Origin: Pseudonocardiales bacterium
GTDB lineage: Bacteria > Actinomycetota > Actinomycetes > Mycobacteriales > Jatrophihabitantaceae
Direction of reading: 5' to 3'
Length of the DNA: 38,465 nt
NCBI GenBank assembly: GCA_030840295.1
Contig: JAVEET010000352.1
Span: forward strand, 1-38,465
Shown here one piece after another: positions 1,844-22,259 of this stretch (within the stretch, counting starts at the first letter, position 1; each line of letters starts with the position of its first letter). Below the pieces are notes generated by a model. That model was not told the DNA's origin. It did not search any database and saw only the letters and a list, made by a program, of their open reading frames with translations. Both the position numbers and the translations under genes were made by a program.

Positions 1844-1850
1844 CGGCCGC

Positions 1851-2687
1851 ATGCACATCGCCCTCCGTCCGCTAGCCGAACAGCTGGCGACCGATCCGAG
1901 TTCAGTGCTCCTCGCCCTTGATTTCGACGGCACTCTGTCGCCGATCGTCGATGATCCAGAACGTGCGCGGGCTGTTCCCGCGGCGATCGAGGCCCTGGTC
2001 GACCTGGCCGACCGTGGTGCCCGCATCGCCATCGTGACCGGTCGGGACGCAGCCACGGTCGTCGAGCTCGGCGGCTTGGAACGGATAAGGGGTGTGCTGG
2101 TCAGCGGACTACACGGCGCCGAGACCTGGCACGAGGGGCAATTTCGCACCCGGGACGAGCCGGCGGGTATCAGCGCGCTTCGCGAGGCCCTGCCGCCGCT
2201 CCTGGAGCGGGTCGATCCGGGAGTCTGGCTGGAGGACAAGCGGCTGTCGTTGGTGGTCCACACCCGTCGCGCCACGCATCCCGAGCAGTCGCTGGAGATG
2301 CTGAGGGAACCGGTGACCGCGCTGGCCGCGGAGCACGACCTGGATGTCGTCGGCGGCAAGTTCGTCCTGGAGATTCGCATCCCCGGCCTGTCGAAGGCCG
2401 ACGCGGTCAGTTCGCTACTGAACGAGCACACGAGGGCCGCACTGTTCTGCGGAGACGACCTCGGGGACCTGCCGGCGTTCGAAGCGATCCGGTCCTGGGC
2501 GGCCGACTCCGGCCACACCGGGATCACCATCGCCGTCGGCGAGGTGCCGCAGGTGAGCACGGCGGCCGACCTGCAACTCGACTCGCCGGAAGAACTGGCC
2601 GAACTACTGTCCGACCTCGCCGATCAAGACAACCGGCGCGATCCGCCCTTGAGAGGACCGGAGGTCAATCCGCAGACACCGCCCTGA
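1851..2687 (+). CDS. otsB: Trehalose-6-phosphate phosphatase OtsB
   Basis: This HAD-superfamily phosphatase dephosphorylates trehalose 6-phosphate to trehalose, the second step of the OtsAB pathway. I chose ATG 1851 (278 residues) over the GTG at 1809. The first catalytic motif then sits at the expected place near the N-terminus (LDFDGT, D24 nucleophile and D26), and the extra upstream residues look unlike the family. Further motifs are VTGRD, the GLHGAE substrate loop, LEDKRLS and the metal-binding GDDLGDLPAFEA near residue 202. Length is normal for bacterial OtsB. Its last 23 bases overlap the 3' end of otsA on the other strand, so the two pathway genes converge instead of forming an operon. 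Confidence 0.92.
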   Translation: MHIALRPLAEQLATDPSSVLLALDFDGTLSPIVDDPERARAVPAAIEALVDLADRGARIAIVTGRDAATVVELGGLERIRGVLVSGLHGAETWHEGQFRTRDEPAGISALREALPPLLERVDPGVWLEDKRLSLVVHTRRATHPEQSLEMLREPVTALAAEHDLDVVGGKFVLEIRIPGLSKADAVSSLLNEHTRAALFCGDDLGDLPAFEAIRSWAADSGHTGITIAVGEVPQVSTAADLQLDSPEELAELLSDLADQDNRRDPPLRGPEVNPQTPP

Positions 2688-4203
2688 TCTGAGCGCGGAA
2701 CCATTCGGGCGGCGAGGCTCCCGCCGAAGCCTGTCTCAGCCGCACCGATCGCAATTCCCTTTCCACATCGGGCATCTCCAGGGCGATCCGCAGGGCGGCC
2801 GCGGTACCCGTGACATCGAACGGGTTCACCAGCACCGCGTCGTCGCCGAGTTCATCCACGGCGCCGGCCTGCCGGGACAACACCGGGATGCCGTGTCGTT
2901 CGGACAACACACAGCCTTCCTTGACGACCAGATTCATGCCATCGCGGATCGGGTTGACCAACAGCACATCGGCCATCCGCATTGCAGCCAGTGACCCGGG
3001 ATAGTCCTCTTCAACCTCGAGTTTCAGCGGTGTCCACTCATCGGTGCCGAACTCGTCGTCGATCTCATCCGCGAGCCGTTTCACTTCGGCGGTGTAAGCC
3101 CGGTAGTCGGCCAGATCATGTCGCGACGGGTAGGCGAACGCGAGATGAACGACCCGGTTGTGCCACACCGGATTGGCCCGTAGGAACTCGCGATAGGCCA
3201 TCAGGCCACGCAGAATGTTCTTGCTCAGCTCCGTCCTGTCCACCCGGGTGATGACCTTGCGGTCGCCGACGGTCCGCTGCAACGTGCGCATCCGGGCCTG
3301 GGCGTCGCGCTGGTTGGCTCGCTCGCGCATCACCTCGACATCCACCCCGAGCGGGAAGGCTTGGATCGAGACCTGGCGCCCGTCGCGCGCAGTGACCGTG
3401 CCGCCGCCTCCCTCGAGGTAATCGACGTTGACCCGCAGGATTTCGTTGCAGCAGTCCAGGAAGGCCTTGGCCCACCGGGGAGTGTGGAATCCCAGCACAT
3501 CGGCCCCGAGCAGGCCGTCGAGGACCTCCCCCGCGATGTCGTCTGGAAACAGCTGGAAGTACTCCGGCGGTGCCCAAGGCGTGTGCGTGAAGTGAGCGAT
3601 TCGGACGTCGCGCCGCCGGGCACGCAGGTAGGACGGCACCAGGTTCAGGTGATAGTCCTGGACCATCACCGTCGCCTCCGGGGCGGCCTCCAGATCGAGT
3701 GCTTCGGCGAACGCGTGGTTGTAGCGCCGGTACGCCGCCCACTGGCGCCGCCACTTCTCGTCGAAGACCGGGGTCCGCGCGGTGTCGTAGAGCAGGTGCG
3801 CGATATACCACAAGGAGGAGTTGGCAATGCCGTTGTAGGCCTGGCGAAACGTCGTGGAGTCGATCGGCAGCATCCGTACGTCGACGCCCTCGATGAGGTC
3901 CACCGAGGCCTTGGATCCGGACACGTGTCCATGTTCAGACTCCCTGGCCAGTGCACGCTCGGCGTCGTTGAGAGCCGCGCAAACCCAGACCACATCGTCG
4001 CGTCCGTGCAACGCGGCCAGCATTCCGCTGACCAGCCCGCCGCCCCCGCGGTCCACCTGGTCCTCGCCACCTTCGACCGACTTGACCGAGATCGGTCCGC
4101 GGTTGGAGGCGACCACCAGCCTCGCTGTCCCGGTGCGGGCTTCGCTGTCCACGACAGCTCCTCTCACGCCCCGTTCAGGCGACGCCACCTGAGCATTCAC
4201 CAT
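2665..4203 (-). CDS. otsA: Alpha,alpha-trehalose-phosphate synthase (UDP-forming) OtsA
   Basis: This GT20 glycosyltransferase joins a nucleotide-activated glucose to glucose 6-phosphate, giving trehalose 6-phosphate for OtsB. The 512-residue product shows VVASNRGPISV with the glucose-6-phosphate loop near residue 31, GGGGLVSGM, the HFTHTPWAPPEYF segment, the RVDRTELSKNILRGL segment with the phosphate-binding Arg and Lys, and DGMNLVVKEG near the C-terminus. Length is typical. The start is ATG 4203, with GAGGTAG about eight bases upstream. A short N-terminal extension (about 25 residues) before the conserved core could mean a start slightly further in. It is convergent with otsB and divergent from the ABC exporter. 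A role in osmotic or desiccation protection is family knowledge. Confidence 0.93.
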   Translation of the reverse strand: MVNAQVASPERGVRGAVVDSEARTGTARLVVASNRGPISVKSVEGGEDQVDRGGGGLVSGMLAALHGRDDVVWVCAALNDAERALARESEHGHVSGSKASVDLIEGVDVRMLPIDSTTFRQAYNGIANSSLWYIAHLLYDTARTPVFDEKWRRQWAAYRRYNHAFAEALDLEAAPEATVMVQDYHLNLVPSYLRARRRDVRIAHFTHTPWAPPEYFQLFPDDIAGEVLDGLLGADVLGFHTPRWAKAFLDCCNEILRVNVDYLEGGGGTVTARDGRQVSIQAFPLGVDVEVMRERANQRDAQARMRTLQRTVGDRKVITRVDRTELSKNILRGLMAYREFLRANPVWHNRVVHLAFAYPSRHDLADYRAYTAEVKRLADEIDDEFGTDEWTPLKLEVEEDYPGSLAAMRMADVLLVNPIRDGMNLVVKEGCVLSERHGIPVLSRQAGAVDELGDDAVLVNPFDVTGTAAALRIALEMPDVERELRSVRLRQASAGASPPEWFRAQIRAVSAD

Positions 4204-16833: not shown

Positions 16834-17217
16834 TCAGAGGTCCCACGGCGGCCGAACGGCCACTCGATGACCGAGCAATCGGCTCCAACTGGACCACCGG
16901 GTGCGACGGTGTGCCGCGGCCAACGGCCACGTCCAGCGCACCCTGGCCAAGGCCTCGGCTACGCCGTGCTGACGCGAGTCCGAGCCGGCCCGGGCGTTGT
17001 CGCTGGCGAGCAGCCAGCCGCCCTCCTGCTCCCGCACCGCGCGCTTGATCACCAGCAGCTCGGGATGCGAGCGGAACCGGGCAAGCACCACCGCTCCGGC
17101 CACCACCGGAGCCCGGTAGGAGGCCAGCACCAGGTCGCCGGGCAACAGGCCCGGAGTCATCGAGGGCCCTACCACCCGCGCGACCTGCCAGGGCAGCAGA
17201 TACTTCATGGTGCGCAT
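16834..17217 (-). CDS. sodX: Nickel-type superoxide dismutase maturation protease SodX
   Basis: This small S26-family (signal peptidase I-like) protease has 127 residues. The nucleophile motif GPSMTPGLLPGD has Ser19, and the general base lysine is in LLVIKRA (Lys58), the spacing of a signal peptidase dyad. It lacks a long N-terminal anchor. In nickel-SOD loci SodX cuts the N-terminal leader from SodN so that the new N-terminal histidine can bind nickel. Here it is divergent from sodN, with 87 bases between the starts. The start is ATG 17217 (MRTMKYL); ATG 17208 is an alternative. Confidence 0.85.
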   Translation of the reverse strand: MRTMKYLLPWQVARVVGPSMTPGLLPGDLVLASYRAPVVAGAVVLARFRSHPELLVIKRAVREQEGGWLLASDNARAGSDSRQHGVAEALARVRWTWPLAAAHRRTRWSSWSRLLGHRVAVRPPWDL

Positions 17218-17290: not shown

Positions 17291-17703
17291 CAGAAGGAGA
17301 TGTCATGCGTTTGCTGCGGCATTCGACCACCGCTTCAGCTCACTGCGACCTGCCGTGCGGTGTCTATGACCCCGCTCAGGCCCGCATCGAGGCAGAGTCC
17401 GTCAAAGCGATCATGGAGAAGTATCAGGGCAACGAGGATCCGGTCTTCCGGACCCGCGCGCTGATCATCAAGGAGCAGCGCTCCGAGCTCGTCAAGCACC
17501 ACCTGTGGGTCTTGTGGACGGACTACTTCAAGCCACCGCACTTCGAGAAGTACCCGAAGTTGCACGAGCTGTTCAACAACGCCACGAAGGCGGCTGGTGC
17601 CGCGGGCGGCAAGGGCACGGTCGACCCGGCCGAAGGTCAGAAGTTGCTCGATCTGATCGCCGAAATCGACACCATATTTTGGGAAACCAAGAAAGCCGCG
17701 TGA
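17291..17703 (+). CDS. sodN: Nickel-containing superoxide dismutase SodN (CDS from ATG 17305; range includes its RBS)
   Basis: SodN converts superoxide to hydrogen peroxide and oxygen in the cytoplasm using a single nickel ion. The coding part runs from ATG 17305 to TGA 17703 (132 residues) behind AAGGAGA. A 12-residue leader (MRLLRHSTTASA) precedes the nickel hook HCDLPCGVYDP, whose His, first Cys and second Cys are the ligands after leader removal by SodX. The mature part is about 120 residues, close to the known family size, and is rich in helices with conserved YFKPPHFEKYP. Nickel-dependent control by Nur is known in relatives; I could not identify an operator in the 87-base gap. The prophage begins directly behind its terminator. 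Confidence 0.95.
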
Positions 17704-17709
17704 GCCTGA

Positions 17710-17747: not shown

Positions 17748-18929
17748 CTCTAGTCCGCAGACAGTCCGCAAGCCGTCGAGGGTCGCATCCGAGATCGTTC
17801 GGATGCGATCTTCGTCGCCGGGCCAAAGGTGGGAATAGATCTTGAGCGTGACGACCGGGCTTGCATGGCCCAGGACCACCTGAACCTGCTTAACGCTCGC
17901 GCCGCCCGCGATGAGTCCCGACGCGTAGAAGTGACGCAGATCGTGAGTGTCCAGCGCGAGGCCGGAATGCTCGTCGAGCCACGCTTGCGCGTCGCGCTTG
18001 GTTGCGAAGGTCCGGGTCGACTCGGCGCCACCAACATCTAGGTAGCGTGCCTGCCACTGCCCCGGCCGCGGCTTGCTCACCTGTCGCTGCGCAGCCGTCC
18101 AGATGTCCTTCCACGCTCCGTACCGCAGCGCCTGACCCTTCGTGGCCGTGAAGAGATCGCCGTCTGACGGATAGGCCGCAAGGTGAGCCGCCAGCGCCCC
18201 GATGACGACGTCGCCGACCGGAACTGTCCGGACAGACTTGGCCGTCTTCGTCGGCCCCATCTGGCCCGTCTGAAGCCGTTGCCGCTGCACGCGCACGGTG
18301 CGCCGCAGGAAGTCGACGTCAGACACCTGAAGACCCAAAGCCTCGCCGATCCGAAGCCCGGAACCAGCCAGCAGCACCACCAGAGCCCGATACAGCTCGG
18401 GTACCGCGTTGACCAGCGCCGCAACTTCCGCCTCGGCCGGCGGGTGAACCTCTCCCTCATCGTCGGTACTCGGGAGCACGATCCGCCGGCAGGGCGACGA
18501 GGCGACGACCCGATCATCGACGGCCGATCCGTACATGCGGGCCAGGGTGTCGTAGATGTTGCGGACCGTCCCGGGTGCAAACGTCTCGGACAACGCCTTG
18601 ACCATCATCTGGACATCGCTGCGCAATATCGATTGCAAGGTGCGGTCACCGAACCGGGGGATGATGTGCAACCTGAGTGCGTTGTCGGTGATCTTGGCGG
18701 TATTGGGCCGGCTGACTTGTCCGGCCTCCCACTTCGCCGCGTACTCGCCCACTGTGGTCCTGGCGACCTTCGGATCAATGTACGTTCCGGTCTGCACCGC
18801 GGCCGTCACCGAATCGATCCACCGTTGTGCATCGACCTTGCGGCCAAAGTGTCGAGAGTGCTCCTTGCCCGCGGCGTCTCGATACCGGGCCCGCCACTGG
18901 CCGTCTGAACGCTTAGCGATATTGGCCAT
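17739..18929 (-). CDS. int: Tyrosine-family phage integrase with an internal second arm-binding-like domain
   Basis: This 396-residue integrase catalyses site-specific recombination of the prophage. It has an N-terminal AP2-like arm-binding motif (about 9-40, GQWRARYRD..G), a core-binding SAM-like domain (about 58-155) and a catalytic domain (about 165-396). Catalytic residues are R193 (GSGLRIGEAL), K228 (TKTAKSVRTVPV), H329 and R332 (HDLRHF), H355 (LGHAS) and Y365 (IYSHL). Between K228 and H329, residues 290-321 repeat the N-terminal motif (GQWQARYLDVGG, then TFATKRDAQAWLD). This is an unusual insertion. The start codon overlaps the repressor stop in TGATG, so both come from one leftward transcript. 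It lies at the left prophage end, reading toward sodN. Confidence 0.92.
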   Translation of the reverse strand: MANIAKRSDGQWRARYRDAAGKEHSRHFGRKVDAQRWIDSVTAAVQTGTYIDPKVARTTVGEYAAKWEAGQVSRPNTAKITDNALRLHIIPRFGDRTLQSILRSDVQMMVKALSETFAPGTVRNIYDTLARMYGSAVDDRVVASSPCRRIVLPSTDDEGEVHPPAEAEVAALVNAVPELYRALVVLLAGSGLRIGEALGLQVSDVDFLRRTVRVQRQRLQTGQMGPTKTAKSVRTVPVGDVVIGALAAHLAAYPSDGDLFTATKGQALRYGAWKDIWTAAQRQVSKPRPGQWQARYLDVGGAESTRTFATKRDAQAWLDEHSGLALDTHDLRHFYASGLIAGGASVKQVQVVLGHASPVVTLKIYSHLWPGDEDRIRTISDATLDGLRTVCGLEAV

Positions 18930-19525
18930 CAGCCCGCCTCCTCGGCGTCGACTTCAGCCTGAGCGCGAGCCATTGCTGCATCCCACTCCGGGCCACCTCG
19001 AAGCTGTGCCAGGAGGGTGCTCGTCATGTGTTCAGCTGCATTCTCGTCCATCAGATCCTGGACATCGGGACTAGCAAGGCCGCCGATGGCATCGTCGACC
19101 CAAGCCCGCATCGCTAAGCGCACTCCCTCTTCGGCGACCGGATGCTTGATGTAGTGATCGCGCAAGGCACTCTCTGCTTGCTTTGCGCGATCCGCCGCTA
19201 CCCATACCTCGGCTTTGGCCGCGGTCCAGCGCTCGAACAGCTCGGTCGCGGCTTTGCTTAGCTTGATCTCTACGGGCACGAGCAGATCCTCGATGTCGAG
19301 CTCGAACACCTTGGAGAACGCCACGAGCTCGTCGACCGAGATCCGCCGAGGTGGCTCGCCCTTTTCGATCTTGTAGATCGCAGAGGCCTGGATCGCGCAC
19401 CCAGCGTCTGTCATCCGCTTTGCCGTGCCCTCGTAGGTCCAAGCGCGCTGCTCGCGCTCAAAGGCGATCCGTCGAGCGAGGTTCGCCTCACTCTGCAGGG
19501 ACCGCAGTCGATTCGGTCTTGGCAT
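18929..19525 (-). CDS. Phage repressor-like XRE-family HTH protein
   Basis: This 198-residue protein has an N-terminal XRE/Cro-C1 helix-turn-helix (about 15-78: RRIAFEREQRAWTYEGTAKRM, then SAIYKIEKGEPPRRISVDELVAFSKVF) and a helical C-terminal part rich in Ala, Glu and Asp. I chose ATG 19525 because AGGAGGG lies five bases upstream; a GTG at 19531 is in frame but lies inside that spacing. It is read leftward in front of int and is translationally coupled to it. Its promoter overlaps an operator-like palindrome, and the rightward early operon starts from an adjacent promoter. That position is the one expected for the lysogeny repressor. No protease-type C-terminus was seen. Confidence 0.8.
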   Translation of the reverse strand: MPRPNRLRSLQSEANLARRIAFEREQRAWTYEGTAKRMTDAGCAIQASAIYKIEKGEPPRRISVDELVAFSKVFELDIEDLLVPVEIKLSKAATELFERWTAAKAEVWVAADRAKQAESALRDHYIKHPVAEEGVRLAMRAWVDDAIGGLASPDVQDLMDENAAEHMTSTLLAQLRGGPEWDAAMARAQAEVDAEEAG

Positions 19526-19541
19526 GTCCACCCTCCTGATT

Positions 19542-19639: not shown

Positions 19640-19828
19640 ATGCAAGCAGCTGTTGAGTACCTCACCACGGAGGAGTTGGCAGACAAGCTGCGCACGACTC
19701 CCGAGACTTGCCGATATTGGCGGCATGTCGGCAAGGGCCCACGATCCTTCAAGGTCGGCCGACGGGTGCTCTACGGGGTGGCCGACGTCGAGAAATGGAT
19801 CGCTGAGGCTCGCGCCAGTGTCAGCTGA
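19640..19828 (+). CDS. Excisionase-like small HTH protein (MerR/Xis type)
   Basis: This 62-residue protein carries a winged helix of the excisionase/AlpA type: YLTTEELADKLRTTPETCRYWRHVGKGP, then FKVGRRVLYGVADVEKWI. Such proteins bend DNA at attachment sites and direct the integrase to excision, or act as small regulators. The ATG at 19640 follows GGAAGGAA. It is the first gene of the rightward early operon and lies opposite the repressor, the usual place for xis or a cro-like gene. Its last codons overlap the GTG of the next gene. Confidence 0.8.
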   Translation: MQAAVEYLTTEELADKLRTTPETCRYWRHVGKGPRSFKVGRRVLYGVADVEKWIAEARASVS

Positions 19829-21599: not shown

Positions 21600-22259
21600 A
21601 TGAGCCGAACAATGCAGAGCGCTCTCGAGAGCACCGCGCTGGGTTTCCCTTGCAACAGGTGCCGCGCACGCGCGGCCGAATGGTGCTATCAGGGCACTGG
21701 GGATGCGTGGGCCCGGACAACACACGTCGAGCGTGGACGATCGGCCGAGTTTGTCGACGGGGCAGCTTTCGACCTGCACAAGATCGAGGGCATGACGACC
21801 CTGCACTTGCAACGGTTCTTCAGCAGGATCGATCGATCGGACGGTGCGAATGCCTGTTGGCCATGGATCGCTGGACACAGCGCAACGGGCTACGGAAATT
21901 TCTGCATCGCGGGGCGGGCCATCAACGCGCATCGGTTGTCCTGGGCGTTGGCCAATCGCAGCGCCGTGCCGGGACGCCTAGCTTTTGTCTGCCACCGGTG
22001 CGATAACCCGACCTGCGTAAATCCGTGCCACCTCTTCCTGGGCACGCCAGCCGACAACTCACAGGACGCAGTGGCCAAGGGAAGAATCCTGCCCAACAGT
22101 GGATCTTTCGCTCCGACGACCCATTGCCTCCGACGCGATCACGACCTGGGTTTGCCTGGCGCCCGAGTCAAGCGAAGTCGGCCCGGACGCCAGGGCGAGT
22201 GCAGGGAATGCACGAACGAGCTCAGGCGCCAGCGTCGAGCGGCCGGCCTCTGTGCCTGA
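21600..22259 (+). CDS. HNH endonuclease with N-terminal zinc-finger segment
   Basis: This 219-residue protein has two parts. Residues 17-45 ([14 protein letters not shown], then H) form a CxxC..C..H finger like the small actinophage zinc-finger proteins. From about residue 65 ([14 protein letters not shown]) it is an HNH_3-type nuclease: [26 protein letters not shown], then [19 protein letters not shown] with the metal-binding histidine and asparagine, and a C-terminal CRECTN zinc knuckle. The HNH part could start on its own at ATG 21792 (155 residues). ATG 21600 follows GAGGGGG. The last eight bases overlap the GTG of the primase gene. It is probably a homing-type nuclease. Confidence 0.78.

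Follow-up and report, generated by a model that had tools for sequence, protein, structure and literature searches.

Complex tyrosine recombinases of the IntTn916 type (PMC8138268) consist of an N-terminal arm-type module, a core-binding domain and a catalytic domain with the RKHRH residues and a tyrosine, have an excisionase gene nearby and arm sites flanking the core. In phages and conjugative elements, control over the direction of recombination is attributed to the arm-binding module at the N-terminus of the integrase. The catalytic-domain insertions named in the pertinent part of Smyshlyaev et al. 2021 (PMC8138268) are those of integron integrases, the beta insertion of IntTn916 and that of the Arch2 group, and an AP2-like insert ahead of box II is absent from that account. 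The insertion described for the Tn1549 group is a beta-hairpin between catalytic strands two and three, not a module preceding box II, and the portion of an actinobacterial conjugative-element survey that was available makes no mention of such an insert either; the search covered openly accessible literature.

We analyzed a 38,465-nucleotide stretch of a Pseudonocardiales genome (hereafter, the window), which encodes a tyrosine integrase of 396 amino acids (P0001; 17742..18929, minus strand) with matches to PF00589 (E = 3.8e-19) and to the PHROG_1 integrases (E = 3.9e-58). The catalytic R, K, H, R, H and Y of PF00589 are all present, as R193, K228, H329, R332, H355 and Y365 (spanning 17835..18353, minus strand). 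Judging by the structural model and the sequence, this protein shares with complex tyrosine recombinases both an N-terminal module of three strands and a helix and putative arm-type sites on the two sides of the core. What sets it apart from the IntTn916-type integrases is a second arm-type module, located inside the catalytic domain.

The repeated module, its insertion site and its predicted fold

Residues 284-319 of the integrase align without gaps with residues 4-39, which belong to the N-terminal arm-binding module (18813..18920, minus strand); 18 of the 36 positions are identical, and the BLOSUM62 score is 101, whereas 2000 shuffles of the remainder of the integrase gave a mean of 28.6 (sd 4.6) and a maximum of 53. 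The original prediction, which placed a repeat of the N-terminal motif at residues ~289-323 (17961-18065), after K228 and before H329, and noted no loss of catalytic residues, had these coordinates right, and all six catalytic residues are invariant in an alignment of 27 integrases. We delimit the inserted AP2-like module as residues ~285-321 (17967..18077, minus strand). The Pfam arm DNA-binding family PF14657 matches it in residues 306-321 only, with 16.7 bits against a cut-off of 22.3.

Many codons, synonymous positions included, differ between the two copies of the module, so that the duplication is not a recent tandem slip. A frame artefact, considered in the original prediction, is unlikely: the frame is open over the whole length of the integrase, insert included, and a search of the source genome, a 375-contig draft, yielded no second copy of the insert. 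The fragmented state of this draft is what could speak for a chimera that arose in assembly or sequencing, but the open frame, the diverged codons, the lack of a donor copy in the assembly and independent parallel cases in other genomes (see below) make such an origin extremely improbable.

The module copy is an insertion of 37-38 amino acids directly ahead of the catalytic H329. It is missing from relatives that are 46-57% identical to the window integrase (L047, L033, L035, L036, L037 and others), in which the helix that ends near residue 284 joins the start of the box II helix, at residue 328, directly. In a census of 167 integrases, 14-19 residues separate the helix tryptophan from the box II histidine in most proteins, compared to 52 in the window integrase, which is the sole carrier of the module within its own clade. 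In the same census, the loop before box II accommodates unrelated inserts in L142, L151, L046, L043, L032/L084 and L180, and thus tolerates insertions; it might also serve as a site for adding a domain to engineered integrases. Such a loop could have taken up a functionless copy of the module as a neutral passenger, and this is the main rival explanation for the insert of the window integrase. Both the unrelated inserts and the lack of the module in any close relative fit it, as does the decay of the DNA-facing surface described below. The insert nevertheless retains an intact strand-helix core despite its divergence, and it is confidently predicted to fold on its own.

Among the unrelated inserts, that of the L142 integrase (ORF +2914) is a Cys-rich stretch of ~40 residues (CCDTC...) and is possibly metal-binding. 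Within the clade of the window integrase, L032, L084 and L043/L049 carry different inserts before box II that lack the module motif. An insert of ~70-75 amino acids is found at this position in L095-L099 from IMG/VR (L095, ORF 1846-3255), and its end resembles the start of the module's helix.

In the full-length AlphaFold2 model, built with 27 sequences (pLDDT 89), the N-terminal module forms strands at residues 2-6, 12-17 and 23-28 and a helix at residues 31-47, all with pLDDT above 90. The insert forms strands at residues 293-297 and 303-307 and a helix at residues 311-321, which match the N-terminal elements 12-17, 23-28 and 31-47 at an offset of 280, but the pLDDT is 60-75 and the first strand is unformed, which counts against our preferred explanation. 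When the insert was folded alone, from a single sequence without an alignment, three strands and a helix (bbba) were predicted with pLDDT 88; this test is independent because the N-terminal module was not part of the input. The anticipated likeness to the fold of the N-terminal module is thus borne out by the isolated insert, whereas in the full model it lacks the first strand.

The top structural match of the isolated insert is the GCC-box-binding (AP2) domain of the plant transcription factor AtERF1 (1gcc), with Z 5.2 and an rmsd of 2.6 across 46 residues. This match has Z below 8 and unrelated folds score within 1 Z of it, so that it is supporting evidence only. At an E threshold of 0.001, Foldseek found no match for the isolated insert, a sequence search of the PDB with the insert returned nothing meaningful, and neither the insert nor the N-terminal module is significantly similar to AtERF1 in sequence. 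For the rest of the integrase, the best structural match is the Tn1549 integrase (6en2; Z 22.9, rmsd 3.1 over 290 residues), the likeness extending over the core-binding and catalytic domains.

The sodN target and the arm-type sites

The integrase belongs to a prophage with genes for a primase, a RuvC-like protein, a terminase, a portal protein, a protease and tail proteins, which is spread over two contigs (the right end of G000:C110 and the left end of C25). The start of the integrase gene is overlapped by that of a phage repressor-like HTH regulator (18929..19531, minus strand; phrog_11503, E = 1.5e-5; phrog_3, E = 7.1e-5), and an excisionase-like HTH protein is encoded at 19640..19828 on the plus strand (phrog_66, excisionase, E = 4.4e-8). 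C25 carries the tail half of the prophage, including a 1430-amino-acid ORF that resembles a tape measure protein by length and position only.

The attachment site of the prophage is the 3' end of sodN, the gene for nickel superoxide dismutase (17305..17703, plus strand), which also adjoins the integrase in related loci. The last codons and the stop codon of sodN lie within the 25-bp attL core (17682..17706, plus strand), which recurs exactly at the opposite end of the prophage (G000:C25 22106-22130). We found sodN next to the integrase in L032, L033, L034, L035, L037, L042 and L043/L049, as well as beside the integrase end in L045; an entire clade of actinobacterial integrases adjoins this gene. 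On the other strand beside sodN, the window also contains a signal peptidase-like ORF (16834-17217); a signal peptidase is the usual neighbor of the nickel superoxide dismutase gene.

Two GTCCGCA sequences in an 11-bp register, the putative P' arm-type sites, overlap the 3' terminal codons of the integrase gene (17753..17770, plus strand). On the P arm in C25, the same heptamer occurs at 21957, 21968 and 21979, again in the 11-bp register, so that five putative arm sites (three plus two) flank the 25-bp core on both sides, and this tandem arrangement is found nowhere else in the two contigs. Overlap of the P' sites with the integrase end may explain the similar C-terminal tails ('RT(V/G)CG'-like) of the relatives. 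In relatives, sodN is followed by a conserved CTGACCTGCGGTTTT, which resembled a further arm site at first but, when inspected by eye, reads as a terminator hairpin.

The insert-free L033, L035, L037 and L042 have the GTCCGCA pair, exact or slightly varied, and its distance from sodN is almost unchanged. Given that these relatives keep both the target and the pair, recognition of the target and of the arm sites appears to be independent of the insert. This bears on the central proposal of the original prediction, that the insert works as a second arm-binding module, either by bridging arm sites in an altered geometry or by governing directionality. Its homology to the arm module, the matching fold and the presence of five arm-type sites speak for such a role. 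However, the arm sites of insert-free relatives have the same sequence and spacing, no second class of repeated site was detected within the P (500 bp) and P' (420 bp) regions that we examined, and the DNA-facing basic residues of the insert have been lost. The proposal is therefore unsupported, and we consider it very improbable.

A second insert-bearing lineage

The same insertion also occurs elsewhere. A fragment search in the order of the window genome, combined with a profile search in its class, identified a lineage of integrases (P0002; L050, L051, L054 and L072-L082) in which a similar module occupies precisely this loop ahead of box II. The original prediction knew of no described example; this stands for the literature searched, within the parts of it that were accessible, but the same arrangement exists in this second lineage. 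Its members share 29-35% identity with the window integrase, and the insert is present in 8 of the 12 genomes of one genus that were examined. These actinomycete integrases (represented by L050, L074 and L081) share with the window integrase the AP2-like insert in the same loop but are encoded on RepSA conjugative elements at tRNA genes, to which several members are close, rather than on a prophage at sodN; their insert is more acidic and, by the tree, of separate origin. The element around L116 encodes RepSA, an HTH_17 excisionase-like protein and a GntR/UTRA regulator, as actinomycete conjugative elements do.

Between close pairs of this lineage, the dN/dS of the insert is ~0.2-0.4, which is below 1 and above that of the catalytic domain. 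Thus, there at least, the insert is under purifying selection and probably functional. That the same kind of module has become fixed with dN/dS below 1 also argues against a neutral passenger in the window integrase, an explanation that we regard as unlikely but serious.

In a tree built without the insert, the window integrase falls among the insert-free integrases of the sodN clade; a single clade of all insert bearers, the window integrase included, is rejected by the AU test (p-AU 1e-52), and the starred branches of the tree force at least two changes of insert state. Furthermore, the insert of the window integrase is most similar to N-terminal modules from within its own clade and from a few other integrases, with scores of 107-109 against those of L037, L083 and L047, so that independent duplication is the simplest reading. 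On this simplest reading, insertion of the module before box II had at least two origins among actinobacterial integrases and is a rare arrangement. Alternatively, an ancient insert may have been lost many times.

Searches with the insert and its flanks against 50,697 phage records gave chance matches only; matches to a Pasteurella phage and a faecal contig seemed to span the insert but, on reading of the sequences, contain none. The insert of the second lineage was not found in plasmid records. A phylum-wide sample of 396 genomes yielded the window integrase only, a prevalence that is a lower bound because ~13 candidates were scored per genome.

The DNA-facing surface and the proposed role of the insert

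The net charge of the 15 inserts ranges from -4 to +1, the insert of the window integrase being the least acidic (+1), compared to +2 to +8 for the N-terminal modules. Of the AP2 DNA-contact positions considered here, contacts at 150 and 152 have been described in PMC3644242, and the others are reportedly those of Allen et al. 1998. We mapped seven contact positions through the 1gcc sequence, in an inferred register. Among the modules listed, in N-terminal ones 2-6 of these positions are basic and none is acidic, whereas in the inserts listed (L054 being aligned in the wrong register) 0-3 are basic and as many as 2 acidic. The N-terminal module of the window integrase itself, read by hand, has A5, R7, D9, R15, R17, K22 and H24, that is, five basic residues and one acidic. 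In its insert, only one of the seven positions is basic (R295), and the basic DNA-contacting face of the sheet has accordingly been largely lost.

Taken together, the homology between the two modules, the AP2-like fold, the insertion-tolerant loop and the insert-free relatives with the same target and arm sites lead us, on balance, to lean towards a duplicated module that has been repurposed for contacts within the complex of integrase and DNA. The loss of the basic face of the inserts, evident in both the charge and the contact positions, argues against a second arm binder. The N-terminal arm-type module, AP2-like with three strands and a helix, would have been duplicated into the loop before box II; the original module would still bind the five GTCCGCA sites and do the arm work, and the inserted copy, its basic face mostly lost, would make contacts between subunits or against core-flanking DNA. 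Duplication of this module ahead of box II could even be a recurrent route by which a DNA-binding module becomes an internal regulatory or synapsis element, a generalization that we put forward as rather unlikely; such an element may, for example, dock on the neighboring subunit or take the place of arm DNA so as to gate strand exchange. With a copy devoid of the basic face in the same catalytic loop of two unrelated lineages, these integrases offer a natural experiment on the ways in which integrase complexes acquire new contacts.

Helices aI and aJ of the Tn1549 integrase contact DNA, according to the relevant part of its structural description (PMC5871717), and, by helix order in our model, the insert would sit between their counterparts, which makes its proximity to DNA plausible. 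The insert could then bind DNA beside the core site and extend core recognition between two DNA-touching helices, consistent with the retained R295. This seems improbable, given that insert-free relatives use the same sodN core, that basic residues have been lost and that the inserts of the other lineage are acidic. Short of such a role, and with repurposing as a contact element still the preferred reading, the net charge of +1 and R295 leave some room for weak DNA binding by the insert of the window integrase.
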